64,000 nt of DNA from positions 434,001 to 498,000 of the forward strand of contig NZ_RKQN01000001.1 in NCBI RefSeq assembly GCF_003814555.1, in the 5' to 3' direction. This document shows positions 12,127 to 37,558 of the stretch, in pieces. The DNA comes from Vulcaniibacterium tengchongense (GTDB lineage Bacteria; Pseudomonadota; Gammaproteobacteria; Xanthomonadales; Xanthomonadaceae). The notes below the pieces were generated by a model. That model worked only from the letters and a program-made list of their open reading frames with translations. It was not told the DNA's origin and ran no database searches. How positions within the stretch are numbered: the first letter of the stretch is position 1; each line of letters begins with the position of its first letter. The translations under genes and the position numbers were made by a program.

Positions 12127-12153
12127 CGAAACGCCCCGCGAGGGGGCGTTTCG
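12127..12153 (-). terminator. Terminator after tRNA-Ser(CGA)
   Basis: An almost perfect GC-rich stem flanked by A3 and T3 (GAAACGCCCC...GGGGCGTTTC) lies directly after the 3' end of the tRNA on the minus strand and is followed by a moderately U-rich stretch. Confidence 0.7.
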
Positions 12154-12159
12154 CGTATC

Positions 12160-12250
12160 TGGCGGAGAGGGGGGGATTCGAACCCCCGAGGCGCTATAAA
12201 CGCCTGCCTGATTTCGAGTCAGGTACATTCAACCACTCTGCCACCTCTCC
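12160..12250 (-). tRNA. tRNA-Ser (anticodon CGA)
   Basis: This 91-nt class II tRNA reads UCG codons. The 7-bp acceptor stem (GGAGAGG/CCTCTCC, plus positions 12244-12250 and 12164-12170) is followed by an encoded GCCA 3' end. The anticodon loop CTCGAAA sits between CCTGA and TCAGG. A long variable arm and the T loop GGTTCGAATCC are present. It is followed on its strand by a terminator hairpin. Confidence 0.96.
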
Positions 12251-12362
12251 GGGTGCAGCGAGCCGGTAATGATACGGACCCGGCGCCGGCGCGGCAAGGC
12301 GCCAGCCGGGCCGCGGCGCCGGCGGCTACACTGTCGCCCCCGACTGAACGGCCGCATCCTCC

Positions 12363-27438: not shown

Positions 27439-28392
27439 TCAGTCGACCGGCACCGCGTGCAGGATCGCCTTGGCCAGCGCCGCGTCCTGGCCGGCGTCGG
27501 CCTCGGCGACCAGCCGGTGCGCCGCCACCGCCGGGAACAGCGCCTGCACGTCCTCCGGCAGCACGTGCCGGCGCCCGAGCAGCAGCGCGTACGCGCGCGC
27601 CGCGCGCAGCAGGGCCAGGCCGGCGCGCGGCGACAGGCCGACGCGCACGCCCGGGTGGCGCCGGCTGCGCGCCAGCAGCGCCTGCACGTAGCCGACCAGC
27701 GCCTCGCTGGCATGCACCTCGCGCACCGCGCGTTGCAGCGCCAGCACGTCGTCGCTGCCCAGCAGCGGCAGCGCGCGCGCGATCAGGTCGCGGCGGTCCG
27801 CGCCGGCGAGCAGGTCGCGCTCGGCGCTCTCGCTCGGGTAGCCCAGCGAGAGGCGGAGCAGGAAGCGGTCCAACTGCGAGTCCGGCAGCGGATAGGTGCC
27901 GGACAGGTCGACCGGGTTCTGCGTGGCGATCACGAAGAACGGTTCCGGCAACGCGTGGCTGGCGCCGTCGACGGTGACCTGGTGCTCGGCCATCGCCTCC
28001 AGCAGCGCGCTCTGGGTGCGCGGCGGCGCGCGGTTGATCTCGTCGGCCAGCAGCACTTGGGCGAACACCGGGCCCGGGTGGAAGCGGAACTCGCGCGTGG
28101 CCGGGTCGAACACCGACACGCCGACCACGTCCGCCGGCAGCAGGTCGGAAGTGAACTGCACGCGCTGGAACTCCAGCCCGAGCGTCGCCGCCAGCGCGTG
28201 CGCGAGCGTGGTCTTGCCCAGCCCCGGCAGGTCCTCGATCAGCAGGTGGCCGCCGGCGAGCAGCGCGACGAACGCCAGCCGCACCTCGTGCGGTTTGCCC
28301 AATACCAACCCGTTGACCTGCTGTTGCGCGCGCTCGAGGGCCTGGCGCTGGGCATCGGTTAGCATGGGGGCCATCGGAAGGGGTGCCGCCAT
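27439..28392 (-). CDS. MoxR-family AAA+ ATPase
   Basis: This 317-residue cytoplasmic AAA+ chaperone has Walker A at about 55-62 (PGLGKTTL), Walker B at about 113-118 (VLLADEINRAPP), sensor 1 (FFVIATQNPVD) and the arginine-finger region (SQLDRFLLRLSLGYP). MoxR proteins remodel VWA/DUF58 partners, here encoded directly downstream. An ATG at 28392 is preceded by AGGAGAAC at good spacing and is preferred over the internal Met at 28374 or 28365. It is divergent from the glycosyltransferase at 28537; the 144-bp gap should hold both promoters. Confidence 0.92.
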   Translation of the reverse strand: MAAPLPMAPMLTDAQRQALERAQQQVNGLVLGKPHEVRLAFVALLAGGHLLIEDLPGLGKTTLAHALAATLGLEFQRVQFTSDLLPADVVGVSVFDPATREFRFHPGPVFAQVLLADEINRAPPRTQSALLEAMAEHQVTVDGASHALPEPFFVIATQNPVDLSGTYPLPDSQLDRFLLRLSLGYPSESAERDLLAGADRRDLIARALPLLGSDDVLALQRAVREVHASEALVGYVQALLARSRRHPGVRVGLSPRAGLALLRAARAYALLLGRRHVLPEDVQALFPAVAAHRLVAEADAGQDAALAKAILHAVPVD

Positions 28393-28536
28393 CGTGCGTG
28401 TTCTCCTGATCGGGCCCCGCGCCGCGCGTCGGGGCCGTGCCGTCCGGACCCGTCCCGGCATCCGCGCCTTGCGCCGAATCGCGCCTCGCGCAGGCAAGGG
28501 CGCGCGAGGCCCGGAGTTTAGCGAGGACACGAGGCG

Positions 28537-30393
28537 ATGAGGGACGAAACGCGCGCGCGCCGCGCCTATTGGGTGCTGTGGGTCGCAATCCTGCTGCTCA
28601 AGCTGGCCGTGGCCGCGCGCCTGCCGCTGTTCGTCGACGAGGCGTTCTACTGGCAGGAAGGCCGTCACCTGGCCGCGGCCTATTCCGACCTGCCGGGGCT
28701 GACCGCCTGGCTGACCCGGCTCGGCGTCGCGCTCGGCGGCGAGCACGCCCTGGCGCTGCGCCTGCCGTTCCTGCTGATCGCCGCGGCGGTGCCGTGGCTG
28801 GTGGTGGCGATCGCCGCGCGCGAATACGGCGCCACCGCCGGCTGGCAGGCCGGCGGCTTGGCGCTGCTGCTGCCGCTGGCGGGCACGCTCGGCCTGCTCG
28901 CGCTGCCGGACGCGGCGATGGCGCTGGCCACGCTGCTGTGCCTGGATGCCGGCGCGCGCCTGCTGCGGGGCGTCGACGCCGCCGCGGCGCTGGAGCTGGC
29001 GTTCGGCCTCGCGCTGGGCGCGCTGTGCCACTACCGCTTCATCGCGGTGATCGGCGTCGGCGGCATCGTCCTGCTGCTGCTGCCGGAAGGGCGGCGCCTG
29101 CTGCGCGACGTGCGCGTGCTGGTGGCGGTCGCGATCGGTGCCTCGGCCTGGGCGCCGCTGGTGGCGTGGAACTTCGACAACGCCGACGCCGGGCTGCGCT
29201 TCCAGCTGATCGACCGGCACCCGTGGGCGTTCCATTTCGACGGCGCGCTGTTCCTGGCGATCCAGGGCGCGCTGGTCACGCCGCTGCTGTTCGCCGCGCT
29301 GGCCTGGGCCGCCTGGCGCGGCCTGCGCAGCCCGCTGCTGGTGTCGCGCTTCTTCGCCCTGTTCGGCGCGCTGGTCGTGCTCGGCTTCTTCGTGCTCGGG
29401 TTCTTCGCCGACACCGAGCGGGTCAGCTTCCACTGGCCGTTGCCAGGCTACCTGGCGCTGCTGCCGCTGCTGCCCAACGCGTTGGCGGCCTGGCCGCGCG
29501 CCTGGCGGCGCGCGACCTGGGGGCTGGCCGGCGCCGGCCTGGCGGCGTCGCTGGGCTATTACGTCGCGGTGTCGTCGCCGCACCTGCGCGAGCGCGCCTC
29601 GACCGAGAAGTGGTACCCGGCGAACTTCGCCGGCTGGGACCGGCTGGCCGAAGCGGTGCGCGCGGAGCTTGCGGCGATGCCGCCCGGCACGCGCATCGTC
29701 GCCGACAACTTCAAGCTCGGCGCCGAGCTCGGCTTCGCCCTCGGCGACCCGCGCATCCCGGTGCTCGACCATCCGCTCAACCACAAGCACGGCCGCGCGC
29801 CGCAGCTGCGCCTGTGGGGCCTGCACAGCGCCGGCCGCGCGGACTGGGGCGAGGCGCCGGTGCTGCTGGTGGTCAGCGCCACCGAGGTGCCGTTCAAGCA
29901 CCTGCTGCGGCGCTACCACGCGCTGTGCGCGATGGTCGGCCCGCTGCCGCCGCCGCGGCGCGTGCTCAACGTCGATCATGGCCGGCAGCGGTTCCTGCTG
30001 TTCGCGCTCGAAGGCCCGCGCCGCGAGGGGCCGTGCGCGGCCCCGGCCATCGCCTGGATCGACGAGCCGGTTTCGGCTGCGCGCGTCGGCCGCCGCTTCG
30101 CCGTGCGCGGCTGGGCGTTCAAGGACGGCGCCGGCCTGGCCGCGGTCGAGATCACGCTCGACGGCGACGTCGTCGCCACGGCGCGCTACGGCCGCGACTT
30201 CCCCGGCCTGCAGCGGGTCTGGACGGAAACCAACGATCCGCAGCATCCCAAGGTCGGCTTCGACGCCGAGGTCGACCTCGCCGGCCGCACCGACGTGGCG
30301 CCGGGGCGGCACTGGCTGGGCCTGCGCCTGCACGGGCGCGACGGCAGCGTCGAGGCCTGGAGCGAGCAACCGCTCGAGCTCGGACGCGAATGA
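28537..30393 (+). CDS. ArnT-like family 39/83 membrane glycosyltransferase
   Basis: This 618-residue polytopic inner-membrane enzyme has about 11-12 membrane segments in the first 340 residues and the acidic GT-C motif VDEAFYWQEGRH near residue 30. It probably moves a sugar from a polyprenyl-phosphate donor to a lipid or glycan in the periplasm, like ArnT with aminoarabinose. Residues about 505-618 form an extra soluble region (RRFAVRGWAFKDGAGLAAVEITLDGDVVATARYG...) that looks like a beta-sandwich and is not part of the usual ArnT layout. Donor and acceptor are unknown. Confidence 0.85.
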   Translation: MRDETRARRAYWVLWVAILLLKLAVAARLPLFVDEAFYWQEGRHLAAAYSDLPGLTAWLTRLGVALGGEHALALRLPFLLIAAAVPWLVVAIAAREYGATAGWQAGGLALLLPLAGTLGLLALPDAAMALATLLCLDAGARLLRGVDAAAALELAFGLALGALCHYRFIAVIGVGGIVLLLLPEGRRLLRDVRVLVAVAIGASAWAPLVAWNFDNADAGLRFQLIDRHPWAFHFDGALFLAIQGALVTPLLFAALAWAAWRGLRSPLLVSRFFALFGALVVLGFFVLGFFADTERVSFHWPLPGYLALLPLLPNALAAWPRAWRRATWGLAGAGLAASLGYYVAVSSPHLRERASTEKWYPANFAGWDRLAEAVRAELAAMPPGTRIVADNFKLGAELGFALGDPRIPVLDHPLNHKHGRAPQLRLWGLHSAGRADWGEAPVLLVVSATEVPFKHLLRRYHALCAMVGPLPPPRRVLNVDHGRQRFLLFALEGPRREGPCAAPAIAWIDEPVSAARVGRRFAVRGWAFKDGAGLAAVEITLDGDVVATARYGRDFPGLQRVWTETNDPQHPKVGFDAEVDLAGRTDVAPGRHWLGLRLHGRDGSVEAWSEQPLELGRE

Positions 30394-30632
30394 GCGCGCT
30401 CGCGCCGGGGACTGCCGAGCGCCAAGGCCCCGGGGGATCGCTACGACAGCCGCGACCCGCGCCGCGCCGTCGGCCAGGTGCGCGATGGACTCGTCCGCAC
30501 GCGCCTTGCGCGCGGCCCCGCGCATTTCCTCCTCGGTCGCGCCGGCGCGGCGCTTGGCGCGCCACGTTCGGCGCGGACGCGCGATGCGTGGTCGCAGCGC
30601 GATGCCCGGCGGCGCGGCCGGCGGCTTTCGGG

Positions 30633-31208
30633 CTAGGGCAGGGTGTAGCCCGCCTCGCGCAGCAAGCGGGCGGTGGCGATCAGCGGCAGGCCGATCAGCG
30701 CGGTCGGATCGCGGCTCTCGATGGCCTCGAACAGGGCGATGCCCAGGCCTTCGGCCTTGAAGCCGCCGGCGCAGTCGAACGGCTGCTCGGCGTCGACGTA
30801 GCGCTCGATCTCCTCCGCGCCCAGCGCGCGGAAGCGCACCTCGGTGGTGTCCAGCGCCTGCAGCGCCGGGCCGTCGTGGCGCAGCAGGCACAGCCCGGTG
30901 TGGAAGCGCGCGCTGCGGCCGGCCATGGCGCGCAGCTGCGCGATCGCCCGCGCGCGGTCGCCGGGCTTGCCGATCGGCCGGCCGTCGAACTCGGCGACCT
31001 GGTCGGAGCCGATCACCCACGCCTCCGGGTAGTCGGCCGCCACCGCCGCGGCCTTGGTCCGCGCCAGGCGCCGCGCCAGCTCGAGCGGCGTCTCGCCCGG
31101 CCGCGGGGTCTCGTCCGCGTCCGGGCGCACGGTGGTGAACGGCAGGCGCAGCCGGGCCAGCAGTTCGCGGCGGTAGGGCGAGGTCGAGGCCAGGATCAGC
31201 GGGCTCAT
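30633..31208 (-). CDS. Maf/YceF-type nucleoside triphosphate pyrophosphatase
   Basis: This 191-residue house-cleaning enzyme hydrolyses modified or non-canonical NTPs. Family motifs are clear: LILASTSPYRRELLARL (phosphate loop), PDADETPRPGETP, the catalytic Asp in VIGSDQVAEFDGRPIGKP, and CAGGFKAEGLGIALFEAIESRDPTALIGLPL at the end. Its position upstream and divergent from yceD-rpmF points to the YceF subgroup (7-methyl-GTP pyrophosphatase in E. coli). A small membrane-protein gene lies 19 bp upstream in the same direction. Confidence 0.92.
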   Translation of the reverse strand: MSPLILASTSPYRRELLARLRLPFTTVRPDADETPRPGETPLELARRLARTKAAAVAADYPEAWVIGSDQVAEFDGRPIGKPGDRARAIAQLRAMAGRSARFHTGLCLLRHDGPALQALDTTEVRFRALGAEEIERYVDAEQPFDCAGGFKAEGLGIALFEAIESRDPTALIGLPLIATARLLREAGYTLP

Positions 31209-31227
31209 GCGGGCTCCCCGGGACGGA

Positions 31228-31596
31228 TCAGGTGCCGCTCATCGACGCGCGCGCCGCGGCGACGCGCGCGAGCTGCTGTTCGATCCGCCCGCGCGCCTGG
31301 TCGATCGAGCGCCGCACCCGCGCGAGCTGGGCCAGGCTGGCCTCGCCGCCGTGGTCGCGCAGCCACAGGCGCTGGCGCAGCATCTCGCGCATCGCCTCGG
31401 CCACCGGATCGCCGGCACCGGGGCCGGTCACCGCCTCGATCTCGGCGCGGGCGGCGCGCAGGCGTGCCTCGAGCGCGTCGGCGGCGTCGAGCACCTCGCG
31501 CAGCGCGCGCTGGCGCCGGGCCGGCCGGCGCAGGATCGCGTAGGCCAGGGCCGCGAGCGCAAGCACGGCGGGCAGCGAGAGCAGGGCGGCGGTCAC
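31228..31596 (-). CDS. Small membrane-anchored coiled-coil protein, unrecognised
   Basis: I do not recognise this 122-residue protein. From the GTG at 31596 it has one N-terminal membrane helix (about 3-22, AALLSLPAVLALAALAYAILRR), then a highly charged Ala/Arg/Glu helix (about 26-60) and a second helical region (about 65-118) with heptad spacing. A longer in-frame start at 31770 would cross the yceD promoter region and is less likely. It precedes maf by 19 bp and is probably co-transcribed with it. The function is unknown. Confidence 0.65.
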   Translation of the reverse strand: MTAALLSLPAVLALAALAYAILRRPARRQRALREVLDAADALEARLRAARAEIEAVTGPGAGDPVAEAMREMLRQRLWLRDHGGEASLAQLARVRRSIDQARGRIEQQLARVAAARASMSGT

Positions 31597-31690
31597 GGGG
31601 GCGGTCCGTACGGGCAGGAGCCGCAGTCTGAACCGCCGCCGTGCGCGCGGCAAATTTCCCCGTCGCGCCGTGGGCTTAGCCCGCCCGGGT

Positions 31691-31719
31691 TTGACAGGCC
31701 CGGGGGGCGGCCCTACCAT
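31691..31719 (+). promoter_or_regulatory. Consensus sigma-70 promoter of the yceD-rpmF operon
   Basis: TTGACA (31691-31696) and TACCAT (31714-31719) are exactly 17 bp apart, the best sigma-70 match I found in the window. Transcription should begin near 31725-31730, at or within about 5 bases of the yceD ATG, leaving no room for a ribosome-binding site. Confidence 0.75.
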
Positions 31720-31729
31720 TTCGTGTCTT

Positions 31730-32245
31730 ATGTCGGCGAACCTGCCCGAGTTGCTGGATGCTTGGCGCATGGTGGCGGCGCGGCGCGGCGTGGAAGGCCG
31801 CTTGCCGTTGTCGGCGCTGACCCGGCTGCGGGAGAGCCTGGTCGATACCGAAGGCGAGGTGCGCTTCGCGCTCGATTTCGACCGCGATGCGTTGCAGGTG
31901 CCTTACGTCGAGCTGCGCATCGAGACCGAGCTGCCGCTGGAATGCCAGCGCAGCCTGGAGCGCTTCCTGCTGCCGGTGAAGATCGTGCAGCGGCTCGGCC
32001 TGATCCGCGACGAGGCGGAAGAGGCCTCGCTGCCGCCGGGCTACGAGCCGCTGCTGGTGCCGGAGGACGGCCAGCTGCGCGCCGCCGACCTGGTCGAGGA
32101 CGAGCTGATCCTCGCCGTGCCGGTGGTGCCGGTGGCGCCGGGCTCGCAGGCGGTCGAGCGCGAATGGAAGGCCGACCAGGCCGAAGCCGGGCGCGCCCAT
32201 CCGTTCGCGGCGCTGGCGCAGTTGAAGAAAAAATCGGGCGACTGA
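31730..32245 (+). CDS. yceD: YceD family protein (DUF177)
   Basis: This 171-residue cytoplasmic protein is conserved next to rpmF across bacteria and linked to 23S rRNA metabolism in studies of its relatives. The family core VELRIETELPLECQRSLERFLLPV and the acidic EDELILAVPVVPV are present, ending HPFAALAQLKKK. E. coli YceD has CxxC in the first block; here it is CQRS, so the second cysteine is lost. The ATG at 31730 gives the family start; an upstream extension to 31670 would precede the promoter. The mRNA appears nearly leaderless. Confidence 0.9.
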   Translation: MSANLPELLDAWRMVAARRGVEGRLPLSALTRLRESLVDTEGEVRFALDFDRDALQVPYVELRIETELPLECQRSLERFLLPVKIVQRLGLIRDEAEEASLPPGYEPLLVPEDGQLRAADLVEDELILAVPVVPVAPGSQAVEREWKADQAEAGRAHPFAALAQLKKKSGD

Positions 32246-32296
32246 TCCAGCGGTCGCCCGGCGTTTGGGTTCTTATCGTTTTCTTGGAGCAAGACC

Positions 32297-32491
32297 ATGG
32301 CTGTCCAGAAGTCCCGCGTCACCCCGTCCAAGCGCGGCATGCGCCGTTCGCACGATGCGCTGAGCGCCAAGCAGCTGGCCACCGACCCGACCACGGGCGA
32401 GACCCACCTGCGCCATCACGTCACCGCCGACGGCTACTACCGCGGCAAGAAGGTGATCGACACCAAGTCCAAGATCGTCGACGAAGAGTAA
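32297..32491 (+). CDS. rpmF: 50S ribosomal protein L32
   Basis: This 64-residue basic protein is identical in layout to gammaproteobacterial L32 without zinc cysteines ([41 protein letters not shown]). A ribosome site TTGGAGC precedes the ATG. It is co-transcribed with yceD. In many relatives plsX follows; here 166 bp without a gene lead to fabH. Confidence 0.97.
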
Positions 32492-32657
32492 TCTTCGTCC
32501 CCGCCGCGCCGCGCGGCCGCCGCAGGCGTCGCGCGCGAAGCCGTCGTCGATCCGCTCCGCGGCCCACGGGCGCGCGGAGTCCGCTTGGCAGGCCGCGGCG
32601 GATTCCTCCGCCAGCCCGGCTGGCGGGCCCCGGCTACGGCTGCGCAGCGGAGTGGTG

Positions 32658-33635
32658 ATGACCGAGACGATTTACGCCCGCATCGCGGGCACCGGCAGCT
32701 ATCTGCCGCCCAAGGTGCTGACCAACGACGACCTCGCCAAGTTCGTCGATACCAGCGACGAGTGGATCGCCACGCGTACCGGCATCCGCGAGCGCCACGT
32801 GGTCGAGGACGAGACCACCAGCGACCTGGCGTTCCATGCCGCCACCCGCGCGCTCGAAGCCGCCGGCGTCGCCGCCGGCGAGCTCGACCTGATCGTGGTC
32901 GGCACGACCACGCCCGACCTGATCTTCCCCTCGACCGCCTGCCTGCTGCAGGCGCGGCTCGGCGCCGAGGGCTGCGGCGCGTTCGACGTCAACGCGGCCT
33001 GCTCCGGCTTCCTCTACGCGCTCAGCGTCGCGGACAAGTTCATCCGCGCCGGCGCGGCCAAGACCGTGCTGGTGGTCGGTTCGGAGACGCTGACCAAGAT
33101 GCTTGACTGGGGCGACCGCTCCACCTGCGTGCTGTTCGGCGACGGCGCCGGCGCGGTGGTGCTCAAGGCCGACCGCGAGACCGGCATCCTCAGCACCCAT
33201 CTGCACGCCGACGGCGCCAAGAAGGAACTGCTGTGGAACCCGGTCGGCGTGTCCGCCGGCTTCAAGCCGGACGAGCCGAACGCCGGCGTGCGCGTGCTGA
33301 TGACCGGCAACGAGGTGTTCAAGCACGCGGTCAAGGCGCTGGACTCGGTGGTCGAGGAGACCCTCGAAGCCAACGGCCTCGATCGCCACGACATCGACTG
33401 GCTGATCCCGCACCAGGCCAACCTGCGGATCATCGAGGCCACGGCCAAGCGCCTGGACATGCCGATGGACCGGGTGATCGTCACGGTCGACAAGCACGGC
33501 AACACCTCCTCGGGCTCGGTGCCGCTGGCGCTGGACGAAGCGGTGCGCTCGGGCAAGGTCCAGCGCGGCCAGCTGCTGCTGCTGGAGGCCTTCGGCGGCG
33601 GCTTCACCTGGGGATCGGCGCTGCTGCGCTACTGA
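32658..33635 (+). CDS. fabH: Beta-ketoacyl-ACP synthase III
   Basis: FabH starts fatty acid synthesis by condensing acetyl-CoA (or a branched primer) with malonyl-ACP. The 325-residue protein has the catalytic triad Cys115 (VNAACSGF), His252 (IPHQANLR) and Asn282 (KHGNTSSGS). The ATG at 32658 with GGAG just upstream is preferred over in-frame GTGs at 32652 and 32655. Branched-chain primers would fit xanthomonads, which are rich in iso-fatty acids, but that is inference. Confidence 0.95.
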
Positions 33636-33657
33636 GCGCCGCCCGCATTTCGACGCG

Positions 33658-33689
33658 ACGCCTCCGCCCTTGCCGGCGGGGGCGTTTTC
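33658..33689 (+). terminator. Terminator after fabH
   Basis: ACGCCTCCGCC pairs with GGCGGGGGCGT (one wobble) around a short loop and is followed by TTTTC. It would end the yceD-rpmF-fabH transcript, so fabD must be served by its own promoter; a TATCAT box at about 33893-33898 is a candidate. Confidence 0.7.
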
Positions 33690-33927
33690 GTATCCGGTCG
33701 GCGCGCACGTTGCTCCGGCGCCGCGATCGCCGTTTCGCGAGAGGAGGATTGCGTCGCGCCCGGATCAGGCGCCTCGCAGCGCGGCGCTCGCCCGTGCGGC
33801 TGAAGTCGCAAGACGTTCGATCCGGCGCGCCGCACGCCGCACGCTTCACGCGGCACATACGTGGCGGTACAGACGCGGCGCAGCAAACGCCCGTATCATG
33901 CGCACCTCTTTTCGCAGAGGGTCTCGC

Positions 33928-34881
33928 GTGACCGGTCCTTCCTCCATCCAGGCGCGGCTGGCGTTCGTTTTCCCGGGCCAGGGCTCGCAGTCGCTCGGCA
34001 TGCTCGCCGACCTGGCCGCGGCGCATCCCTCGGTGCGCGAGACCTTCGCCGAAGCCAGCGAGGGCGCCGGCGTCGATCTGTGGACGCTGAGCCAGGAAGG
34101 CCCGGAAGAGAAGCTCAACAGCACCGAGTTCACCCAGCCGGCGCTGCTCGCCGCGGGGATCGCGGTGTGGCGGCTGTGGCGCGAGCGCGGCGGCGCGGTG
34201 CCGGCGGCGCTGGCCGGGCACAGCCTCGGCGAGTACACCGCGCTGGTCGCATCCGGCGCCCTGTCGCTGGGCGAGGGCGCGCGCCTGGTGCGGCTGCGCG
34301 GGCAGCTGATGCAGCAGGCCGCGCCGGCCGGCAGCGGGGCGATGGCGGCGGTGCTCGGCGCCGAGGACGCGCTGGTCGAATCGGTGTGCGGGGAGGTGTC
34401 CGGCGGCGAAGCGGTGGTGCCGGCCAACTACAATTCGCCGGGCCAGATCGTGATCGGCGGCCACGCCGCCGCGGTCGACAAGGCGCTGACCCTGCTCGCC
34501 GAGCGCGGCGTGCGCAAGGCGGTGAAGCTTGCGGTCAGCGTGCCGTCGCACACGCCGCTGATGCGCGACGCGGCCGAGCGCCTGGCCGAGGCCTTGGCCG
34601 GCGCGCAATGGCAGGCGCCGGGGATCCCGGTGGTGCAGAACGTCGACGCCGGCGTGCATGCCGGCGAGGCGATCCGCGACGCGCTGGTGCGCCAGCTGTA
34701 CCTGCCGGTGCAGTGGACCGGCTGCGTGCGCGCGCTGGCGGCGCGCGGAATCGAGCGGGTGGCCGAATGCGGCCCCGGCAAGGTGCTCGCCGGTCTGGTC
34801 AAGCGCATCGACAAGAACCTCGACGCGCGCGCCCTGGGCACGCCGGCCGAGTTCGACGCCGCGCTGGCCGAATGGCGGTGA
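33928..34881 (+). CDS. fabD: Malonyl-CoA:ACP transacylase
   Basis: FabD loads malonyl groups on ACP. The 317-residue protein begins with the family FVFPGQGSQSLGML and has the nucleophile Ser99 in GHSLGE and the partner His208 in SVPSHTPLM. A GTG start at 33928, after AGAGGG, is chosen; an ATG at 33898 is in frame but overlaps the likely -10 box TATCAT. fabG follows after 122 bp. Confidence 0.94.
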   Translation: MTGPSSIQARLAFVFPGQGSQSLGMLADLAAAHPSVRETFAEASEGAGVDLWTLSQEGPEEKLNSTEFTQPALLAAGIAVWRLWRERGGAVPAALAGHSLGEYTALVASGALSLGEGARLVRLRGQLMQQAAPAGSGAMAAVLGAEDALVESVCGEVSGGEAVVPANYNSPGQIVIGGHAAAVDKALTLLAERGVRKAVKLAVSVPSHTPLMRDAAERLAEALAGAQWQAPGIPVVQNVDAGVHAGEAIRDALVRQLYLPVQWTGCVRALAARGIERVAECGPGKVLAGLVKRIDKNLDARALGTPAEFDAALAEWR

Positions 34882-35003
34882 GCCCGCCTGCCGCCTGAGG
34901 CGCGGCGGCCACGCGGACCTGCGGGCGCCGTACGCGCGCGATCACGCGATAATCCGCGCCGACCGCACCGCATGCGGCGCACGAACGCCCCCTGGAGACA
35001 GAC

Positions 35004-35747
35004 ATGACCCCGACATTGCAAGGCGAAATCGCGCTGGTCACCGGCGCCAGCCGCGGCATCGGCGCGGCGATCGCCGACGAACTGGCCGCGCAGGGCGCGA
35101 CCGTGATCGGCACCGCCACTTCCGAGTCCGGCGCCCAGGCCATCGGCGAGCGCCTGCGCGCGCACGGCGGCCACGGCCGCGTGCTCGACGTCGCCGACGG
35201 CGCCGCGGTCGAGGCGCTGATCGACTCGATCGGCAAGGAGATCGGCCCGATCTCGATCCTGGTCAACAACGCCGGCATCACCCGCGACAACCTGCTGATG
35301 CGGATGAAGGACGAGGACTGGCAGGCGATCCTCGACACCAACCTGACCAGCGTCTACCGCACCAGCAAGGCGGTGATGCGCCCGATGATGAAGGCGCGCA
35401 AGGGCCGCATCGTCAACATCGCCTCGGTGATCGGCGTGACCGGCAACGCCGGCCAGGCCAACTATGCCGCGGCCAAGGCCGGCATCATCGCCTTCAGCAA
35501 GTCGCTGGCGAAGGAAATCGGTTCGCGCGGCGTCACCGTCAACGTGGTCGCGCCCGGTTTCATCGACACCGACATGACCCGCTCGCTGCCCGAGGACGCG
35601 AAGAACGCGATGCTCGGCCAGATCGCGCTCGGCCGCTTCGGCGAGCCGGCCGACGTGGCCCGTGCGGTCGCGTTCCTGGCCGGCCCGGGCGGCGCCTACA
35701 TCACTGGCGAGACCCTGCACGTCAACGGCGGCATGTACATGCCCTGA
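35004..35747 (+). CDS. fabG: 3-oxoacyl-ACP reductase
   Basis: This 247-residue SDR enzyme reduces beta-ketoacyl-ACP with NADPH. It shows the TGASRGIG cofactor loop (13-20), NNAG, the catalytic Ser141, Tyr154 and Lys158 (YAAAK) and a C-terminal MYMP. It is placed between fabD and acpP as in E. coli. Confidence 0.95.
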   Translation: MTPTLQGEIALVTGASRGIGAAIADELAAQGATVIGTATSESGAQAIGERLRAHGGHGRVLDVADGAAVEALIDSIGKEIGPISILVNNAGITRDNLLMRMKDEDWQAILDTNLTSVYRTSKAVMRPMMKARKGRIVNIASVIGVTGNAGQANYAAAKAGIIAFSKSLAKEIGSRGVTVNVVAPGFIDTDMTRSLPEDAKNAMLGQIALGRFGEPADVARAVAFLAGPGGAYITGETLHVNGGMYMP

Positions 35748-35869
35748 CGCCGGCGAAATTCGGCCGCTAAGCGGTTGAACGAAAAGGGCTTTCGCGCACG
35801 CTCGCGATCGCCCGCGATTCCATTAGACTATTCCGTCGAACATCCCGTCCCGGGAGGAGTGAGAACCCC

Positions 35870-36109
35870 ATGAGCGACATCGAAAATCGCGTCAAGAAGA
35901 TTGTGATCGAACAGCTTGGCGTTGACGCAGCACAAGTCACCAACAACGCTTCGTTCGTCGACGACCTCGGCGCGGACTCGCTCGACACCGTCGAGCTGGT
36001 GATGGCGCTCGAAGAAGAGTTCGAGTGCGAGATCCCGGACGAAGAGGCCGAGAAGATCACCACCGTGCAGCAGGCCATCGACTACGTCAAAGCGAACGTC
36101 AAGCAGTAA
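35870..36109 (+). CDS. acpP: Acyl carrier protein
   Basis: This 79-residue acidic four-helix protein carries growing acyl chains on a 4'-phosphopantetheine attached to Ser37 (GADSLDT). It is preceded by a strong ribosome site (GGGAGGAGTG). Its codons are visibly less GC-extreme than its neighbours, which fits very high expression. A TAGACT box at about 35824-35829 may allow separate transcription from fabG. Confidence 0.98.
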
Positions 36110-36319
36110 GTTCGTTCCTGGACGGAACCGCGGCCGCCCGCGGCCGGGTCTTCCCGTCCTCCGCAACGAAGGCGCGGCCGCCGCGGCCGCCGCCTTCGGA
36201 ACGGGGCCGGCGCCCGCTCGGGCCCCGGTCTCCGGTAAAACCGACCGGGGCCGCTCTGCGGCCCCGCGTCGTATCGACCGGCCGATGCGCCGGCGCTGTG
36301 TCCGCAGAGGGAGTGCCTT

Positions 36320-37558
36320 ATGTCCAAACGTCGCGTCGTCGTCACCGGCCTCGGGATCGTCTCGCCGCTCGGCAACGATCTGGCCAGCACCTGGGACGGC
36401 ATCGTCAACGGCCGCTCCGGCATCGGGCCGATCACCCTTTTCGACGCCTCCGGCTTCACCACCCGCATCGCCGGCGAGGTGCGCGACTTCGACGTCACCC
36501 GCTGGGTGAACCCGAAGGACGCGAAGAAGATGGATCCGTTCATCCACTACGGCGTCGCCGCTTCGCTGATGGCGATGGAGGACGCCGGCCTGACCGTGGA
36601 GGAGTCCAACGCCGAGCGCATCGGCGCGCTAATCGGCTCGGGCATCGGCGGCATCCTCGGCATCGAGGAGCAGACCGTGAAGTACCACGAGGGCGGCCCG
36701 CGCAAGATCTCGCCGTTCTACGTGCCCAGCACCATCATCAACATGCTGCCCGGCCAGGTCTCGCTGCTGACCGGCATCAAGGGCCCCAACTTCTCCGCGG
36801 TGTCCGCCTGCGCCACGTCGAACCACTCGATCGGCATGGCGATGCGCATGATCCAGTACGGCGACGCCGACGTGATGATCGCAGGCGGCGCCGAGCGCGG
36901 TTCCTCGCCGACCTCGGTCGGCGGCTTCTGCTCGATGAAGGCGATGTCCACGCGCAACGACGAGCCGGCCAAGGCCTCGCGCCCGTGGGACAAGGACCGC
37001 GACGGCTTCGTCCTCGGCGACGGCGCCGGCATCCTGGTGCTGGAAGAGTACGAGCACGCCAAGGCGCGCGGCGCGCGCATCTACTGCGAGCTGGCCGGCT
37101 TCGGCGCCTCGTCCGACGCGTTCCACATGACCGCGCCGAGCGAGAACGGCGAGGGCCCGGCGCGCTGCATGGCCGCGGCGTTCAAGGATGCCGGCATCAA
37201 CCCGGACCAGGTCGGCTACCTCAACGCGCACGGCACCTCCACGCCGCTGGGCGACGTGGCCGAGACGCTGGCGATCAAGCGCGCGCTCGGCGACCACGCC
37301 TACAAGACCATGGTCAGCTCGACCAAGTCGATGACCGGGCACCTGCTCGGCGCGGCCGGCGGCGCCGAGGCGATCTTCTCGGTGCTGACGCTGCACCACG
37401 GCATCATCCCGCCGACCATCAACCTGGACGAACCGGGCGAGGGCTGCGACCTCGACTACGTGCCGAACGTCGCCCGCGAGGCGCAGGTGGACGTGGCGGT
37501 GTCGAATGGCTTCGGTTTCGGCGGCACCAACGGCACGCTGGTGTTCAGGCGGATCTGA
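36320..37558 (+). CDS. fabF: Beta-ketoacyl-ACP synthase II
   Basis: FabF elongates acyl-ACP with malonyl-ACP and controls unsaturated chain length with temperature. The 412-residue protein has the Cys-His-His triad: Cys164 (SACATSNHS), His304 (NAHGTST) and His341 (MTGHLLGAAGG). It ends at a clear terminator before pabB. Confidence 0.96.
   Translation: MSKRRVVVTGLGIVSPLGNDLASTWDGIVNGRSGIGPITLFDASGFTTRIAGEVRDFDVTRWVNPKDAKKMDPFIHYGVAASLMAMEDAGLTVEESNAERIGALIGSGIGGILGIEEQTVKYHEGGPRKISPFYVPSTIINMLPGQVSLLTGIKGPNFSAVSACATSNHSIGMAMRMIQYGDADVMIAGGAERGSSPTSVGGFCSMKAMSTRNDEPAKASRPWDKDRDGFVLGDGAGILVLEEYEHAKARGARIYCELAGFGASSDAFHMTAPSENGEGPARCMAAAFKDAGINPDQVGYLNAHGTSTPLGDVAETLAIKRALGDHAYKTMVSSTKSMTGHLLGAAGGAEAIFSVLTLHHGIIPPTINLDEPGEGCDLDYVPNVAREAQVDVAVSNGFGFGGTNGTLVFRRI

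Follow-up and report, generated by a model that had tools for sequence, protein, structure and literature searches.

Leaderless messages are thought to be rare in the Gammaproteobacteria, and a study of Xanthomonas reportedly counted about 14% of mRNAs as leaderless. Among the closest described systems to the locus analyzed here is the yceD-rpmF operon of Escherichia coli, whose first gene has already been described in one paper, in the part available, as leader-free and poorly translated: ribosome profiling showed unequal translation of the two genes from an even mRNA, the low translation efficiency of yceD was attributed to its missing leader, and Krishnan et al. 2010 was cited on the yceD-rpmF point (PMC4378010). 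Deletion of yceD in E. coli lowers 23S rRNA and leaves growth normal in rich medium (PMC5049393). Leaderless genes in general are known; the available portion of PMC5230787 puts leaderless mRNAs at no more than 1.7% of E. coli genes and states that their start-codon preference differs, and Kim et al., as far as the text is accessible, give 18 exactly leaderless genes (PMC3415461). In the accessible text of the 5′-end study of Romero et al., five E. coli mRNAs have leaders shorter than 10 nt, three of them from prophage genes and the others from pgpA and rhlB, and yceD is absent from that text (PMC4681348). No 5′-end maps for Xanthomonas or Lysobacter were among the literature matches listed, and we found no statement in the open-access literature on conservation of the near-leaderless layout of yceD. 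What is new here is the deep conservation of this layout and a composite sequence pattern that leads back to yceD.

In E. coli K-12, yceD is preceded by TTGACT, a 17-bp spacer, TAATAT and GCGCGCCCT, which leaves a gap of 9 nt between the -10 element and the ATG. Of 5426 E. coli genomes, 5374 contain a 161-bp stretch carrying this promoter, with identity of at least 99% in 5097 records. The same collection holds five yceD places on plasmid-labelled records, which could be mislabelled chromosomes or large integrations. The window analyzed here, a 64-kb stretch of Vulcaniibacterium tengchongense DNA with 73% G+C, has a closely similar arrangement on its plus strand: a -35 element TTGACA (31691-31696) that matches the consensus at 6/6 positions, a 17-bp spacer, and a -10 element TACCAT (31714-31719) that matches at 4/6. 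The sequence-only reading had singled this out as the best sigma-70 promoter of the window, and a scan of both strands agrees, ranking it top at 10/12, ahead of the two other sites that reach at least 9/12 (three in all). It is also the one promoter-like site at threshold between 28000 and 36500, where dinucleotide shuffles gave a mean of 0.3 (sd 0.5), so that a start well upstream of 31710 finds no promoter-like site of its own in that interval. The ten bases TTCGTGTCTT (31720-31729), comprising the discriminator and the predicted leader, separate the -10 element from yceD, which encodes the DUF177 23S rRNA accumulation protein (31730-32245; ATG 31730-31732, stop 32243-32245) and is preceded by weak Shine-Dalgarno (SD) pairing. 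The identity of this ORF as YceD rests on PF02620 (47.6 bits; cut-off, 33.2 bits), and it matches the NCBIfam equivalog NF008395 with an E value of 1.5e-24 at 86.9 bits, which is under the 192-bit cut-off of that model. Four Arenimonas records, of a genus that we take to belong to the same family as the window (Xanthomonadaceae), are nearest to the YceD of the window among the named matches listed, with 60-63% identity. The second gene of the operon is rpmF for ribosomal protein L32 (TIGR01031; 32284-32491, plus strand), with an SD-like TTGGAG at 32284-32289 and its ATG at 32297, and fabH follows.

The relation between promoter and start codon is held constant across the family. In all of the 30 family loci first compared, TTGAC lies 38-39 nt before the yceD ATG (39 in 28 loci, 38 in L025 and L027), and inspection of the same loci found a TA...T -10 element and a CTT immediately 5′ of the ATG in each. 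The YceD N-terminus before the LDAWR motif differs in length from one family locus to another, yet the distance from promoter to ATG stays fixed, and this links the promoter to the ATG at 31730. This fixed distance, together with protein matches that in many relatives extend to 31730, upholds the earlier assignment of the YceD start to that codon. The TTG within TTGACA is in frame with yceD in most family loci; it is not a shared start, because it is out of frame in L025 and L027. A chance promoter at yceD was rejected on the combined weight of the 30/30 conservation and the shuffles.

For wider comparison the layout was defined as a best sigma-70-like site of at least 8/12 within 150 nt upstream that leaves 7-12 nt to the start codon, with yceD starts set by alignment or by distance from the Pfam match and therefore blind to the promoter. 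Within the order, 58 of the 60 relatives searched gave a match, and 56 were used after exclusion of G014 (divided between two contigs) and G050 (partial); the layout was found in 52 of these 56 loci, compared with a mean of 0.35 and a maximum of 1 in 20 shuffles. Beyond the order, yceD was matched in 146 of 184 genomes of the class, which we take, from the named pattern matches described below, as Gammaproteobacteria; three of these lie in the window's own family, and from the remaining 143 we took 114, mostly the better-scoring ones, which represent 95 other families. The layout is present at 98 of these 114 loci (20 shuffles: mean 2.7, maximum 6) and in 83 of the 95 sampled families outside the order, and by inspection in five of six further class families. 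Taken together, these samples place a -10 element just 5′ of the start codon at 155 of 176 class loci, with a gap of 9 nt in 72 of the 98 class loci and of 10 nt in the window. The start codon is ATG in 155/155 selected loci, a figure to be read with the preference given to ATG during start choice. As a control, the rpmF starts of the same loci showed the layout in 3 of 164 cases, and by both the shuffles and this control sigma-70 hexamers at 16-18 bp spacing exceed chance at yceD. In the other classes of the phylum, from which 34 loci were taken out of 97 matching genomes, inspection found the layout at 0/34 yceD loci, which rules it out as a phylum-wide trait. This distribution suggests that an early class member probably already had the layout and that most of the sampled families retained it.

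The 21 class loci that lack the layout comprise 16 from the wider class sample, four from the order, and L348, and some of these exceptions may reflect a wrong choice of start. L139, L158, and L187 carry a TTGAC/TANNNT site and its G+C-rich tail further upstream, 69-90 nt from the yceD start that was chosen, and in L158 and L187 a 5-nt SD-like word precedes that start; in these three lineages the start may have shifted downstream, changing a leaderless gene into a leadered one. L105 has an ATGATG, of which the second ATG was chosen as the start. Among the remaining exceptions, for example, L100, L117, L168, L185, L190, and L191 have no TTGAC/TANNNT site at the usual distance.

Translation signals differ sharply between the two genes of the operon. 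Predicted pairing with the 16S rRNA tail in the window amounts to -1.9 kcal/mol before yceD versus -5.6 kcal/mol before rpmF, and the means over the compared loci are -1.24 kcal/mol for yceD, -2.21 kcal/mol for shuffled sequence, and -6.74 kcal/mol for rpmF. SD pairing is stronger at rpmF than at yceD in 159 of 164 loci, and an SD-like word of at least 4 nt precedes 160/164 rpmF starts versus 16/164 yceD starts, where the words are 4-5 nt long. Since rpmF follows yceD both in the window and at 164 of 170 loci, this contrast means that the message as a rule couples an SD-poor first gene with an SD-led second one. It had been proposed from the window sequence that the operon for L32 begins with a near-leaderless message. 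For YceD the promoter geometry supports this, but the proposal does not carry over to L32: an SD-like site precedes rpmF, so that it is YceD, not L32, that would start near-leaderless. L32, which had been called essential, is dispensable in E. coli. A terminator-like hairpin (32234-32270) spans the yceD stop codon, with a T-rich stretch and the SD of rpmF behind it; it is a possible attenuation or processing site between the two genes.

In the selected set of 155 loci, the -35 element reads TTGAC at 94-99% per base and has a T before it in 82%, as it does in the window, the -10 element reads TANNAT with T at 96% and the second A at 90%, and the flank and spacer columns shown stand at 30-53%. 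These hexamer frequencies are inflated by the selection of good matches, and positions 2 (A) and 6 (T) of the -10 element stand at 100% because the scan demands them. Six bases after the -10 element there is a G in 112/155 loci, CTT precedes the ATG in 96/155, and a nearest-purine rule gives a leader of 4 nt in 96/155 loci (range 1-6). The next purine in the consensus is the first base of the ATG itself, so some of the transcripts could be strictly leaderless. The ten bases between the -10 element and the yceD ATG of the window predict a leader of about 5 nt. Judged by the usual distance from -10 element to transcription start, the window +1 most likely lies near G31725, which would give the leader GTCTT; a start at the first base of the ATG, 11 nt downstream of the -10 element, is less likely.

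The discriminator, measured as the bases from the -10 element to the last three before the ATG, holds 81-82% G+C in loci that average 41, 50, and 65% G+C (n = 21, 32, and 102), and the spacer tracks the genome at 37, 53, and 69% in these groups. Promoters of the rRNA type that are under stringent control carry a G+C-rich discriminator. The likeness to them lies in this G+C-rich stretch between -10 and +1, kept even in AT-rich class loci, and by its composition it suggests stringent (ppGpp/DksA) control of the operon across the class. The window itself differs, however, as its own discriminator TTCGTGT has 3/7 G+C, the lowest of 35 family loci (family mean 74%), and the case for stringent control is weakest there.

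Searches run in the reverse direction, from pattern to gene, returned to yceD. The strict pattern TTTGACA-N17-TANNAT-NNNN-S-GCTT-ATG, scanned over a species-level genome collection, gave at least 116 matches, and in 114 of the 116 listed the ATG opens a YceD ORF as recognized by a profile built from the studied loci. Hosts among the matches listed include Stutzerimonas, Pseudomonas, Cellvibrio, Microbulbifer, and Alcanivorax, as well as Thiobacillus, Nitrosomonas, Zoogloea, Arenimonas, and Colwellia. In Microbulbifer guangxiensis (L233) promoter and ATG are kept and the ATG opens a 14-codon ORF, behind which YceD lies in another frame (profile E value 2e-52); the short ORF is possibly a leader peptide or the product of a frameshift. 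In the second match that does not open YceD directly (L250), the stretch ends after 39 codons. Of the 184 class genomes, 16 hold a single match each to the strict pattern, every one of them at yceD, and its backward control gave 0. The window's own site does not fit the strict pattern, since its tail GTCTT differs. A relaxed pattern, TTGAC-N17-19-TANNNT-N8-11-ATG, occurs twice in the window's own genome, at yceD and lexA, and it is found at yceD in 18/18 family genomes among 38 matches in total; the other 20 of these do not exceed the backward control (28) and as a group are background. In the AT-rich order genome G042 the relaxed pattern gave 39 matches against 56 backward, again background. 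The relaxed pattern by itself thus proves little, and it is recurrence at one gene that carries weight. With two relaxed matches in the own genome and 3/164 rpmF starts, a layout common to many genes was ruled out. The composite promoter-ATG pattern can mark the true YceD start in unannotated genomes.

The lexA gene of the same genome (TIGR00498, E value 1.4e-52) has the layout at G000:C1:565902-565940 (L309:1501-1539), where TTGACA is followed by TTAGTAGCATTGCTACTAATG, a palindrome that holds the -10 element and reaches the start codon. This palindrome is presumably the LexA operator, and the gene looks like an autoregulated, near-leaderless one with the operator over its -10 element. Closer to yceD, a candidate divergent promoter TTGCCG-17-CAGACT (31625-31653, minus strand), a weak match to the consensus, could serve a 122-aa ORF at 31228-31596 that has no Pfam or NCBIfam match; in 22 of 34 family loci the AGTCTG and GCAAA/G blocks of this site are spaced 24-27 nt from each other. 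A known RNA element near yceD was looked for and none was found at Rfam gathering scores. Elsewhere in the window, on the minus strand, Rfam matches to the sRNA sX4 and to a tRNA overlap (12129-12267 and 12163-12250), so that the sX4 of the window may be a tRNA with its flanks, and just upstream of them lies a promoter-like site (9/12) with its end at 12269.

The explanation that we consider likely is that the promoter of the yceD-rpmF operon is fused to the start codon of its first gene, which gives a near-leaderless, SD-poor YceD and an SD-led L32 with low and high output, respectively. RNA polymerase would start a few nucleotides before the yceD ATG, in the window most likely at G31725, YceD would be translated from this near-leaderless message with little SD pairing, and L32 would initiate from the same message at its better SD, such that one promoter yields low YceD and high L32 by differential translation; stringent control, if it applies, would link both proteins to ribosome synthesis. 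A different emphasis is possible, though we hold it to be rather unlikely, in which selection maintains a strong and perhaps stringent promoter, with the near-leaderless start tolerated as a side effect of the compact intergenic space that yceD shares with a divergent gene. The G+C-rich discriminator across the class and, in the window, the small distance to the divergent ORF are in keeping with this, but it leaves unexplained both the fixed gap between -10 element and ATG (72 of 98 class loci have 9 nt) and the SD pairing of yceD below that of shuffled sequence. Transcription from a promoter further upstream, which would give yceD an ordinary leader and make the TTGACA site a minor one, appears very improbable: the RNA sraB is annotated just upstream of E. 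coli yceD and 21 of the 176 loci are without the layout, but the interval from 28000 to 36500 has no other promoter-like site at threshold, and the leader so produced would still be without SD pairing. Least credible of all is translation with a normal leader from the next in-frame ATG, at 31769. Thirty of the 35 family loci retain that codon, yet it is absent in the other five and has no preceding SD in the window, the protein match with many relatives reaches the upstream ATG, and within the first 30 codons of the 155 loci no further in-frame ATG (GTG and TTG uncounted) is common to more than 55. On this comparison a downstream start with a ribosome site, which would have refuted the sequence-only reading, finds little support.

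A further proposal concerns what a promoter fused to a start codon might be for. The near-leaderless start could sense ribosome state, with YceD made in proportion to 70S ribosomes or under stress that blocks SD-led initiation, a suggestion that we regard as unlikely. Leaderless initiation uses 70S ribosomes and resists kasugamycin according to the available text of PMC5230787, the E. coli deletion lowers 23S rRNA, and the layout is conserved, all of which would suit such a role. However, a stub of 3-5 nt may behave differently from a true 5′-terminal AUG, and in the accessible portion of the same report Lange et al. found that leaderless messages were not enriched among the kasugamycin-resistant ones, torS was the sole leaderless transcript among them, and that text has no yceD (PMC5230787). 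The deletion strain also shows no growth defect in rich medium (PMC5049393), and with normal growth of E. coli that lacks yceD the benefit of the layout is not obvious. In its strongest form, which we think similarly improbable, the proposal would have a fixed stub of 3-5 nt selected across most Gammaproteobacteria, with its translation reporting ribosome state and thereby tuning YceD and 50S assembly. If the ribosome-state reading were true, yceD would represent a conserved housekeeping use of leaderless initiation. Independently of it, and under the explanation of a promoter fused to the start codon, yceD is a housekeeping gene whose near-leaderless start recurs in 83 of 95 families outside the order and adjoins an SD-led rpmF. 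The yceD-rpmF message thus forms a natural pair, one message with two initiation modes, in which leaderless initiation can be probed in laboratory species, E. coli K-12 among them.

The yceD arrangement can be set beside several known systems. The leaderless genes of Deinococcus-Thermus (PMC12340547) likewise have a TANNNT element just 5′ of the start codon and no SD, as does the TA-like signal of PMC3160421, in which TANNNT lies close before a start codon without SD. The Deinococcus gap is about 6-7 bp and a -35 element helps there without being needed, whereas yceD has a gap of 9-10 nt and keeps a near-consensus -35 element; given the longer gap, a short stub rather than a zero leader is expected at yceD. 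The two also differ in reach, as the Deinococcus layout is found in nearly a third of D. radiodurans genes and the TTGAC layout occurs twice in the window's own genome. The rhlB and pgpA genes of E. coli resemble yceD, in the part of the study available, in being housekeeping genes with a -10 box just 5′ of the start (PMC4681348). A further counterpart is the E. coli yceD-rpmF pair itself, which has plsX between rpmF and fabH and sraB just upstream, where in the window fabH comes directly after rpmF, and which is orthologous to the pair described here and carries its promoter in the same place.
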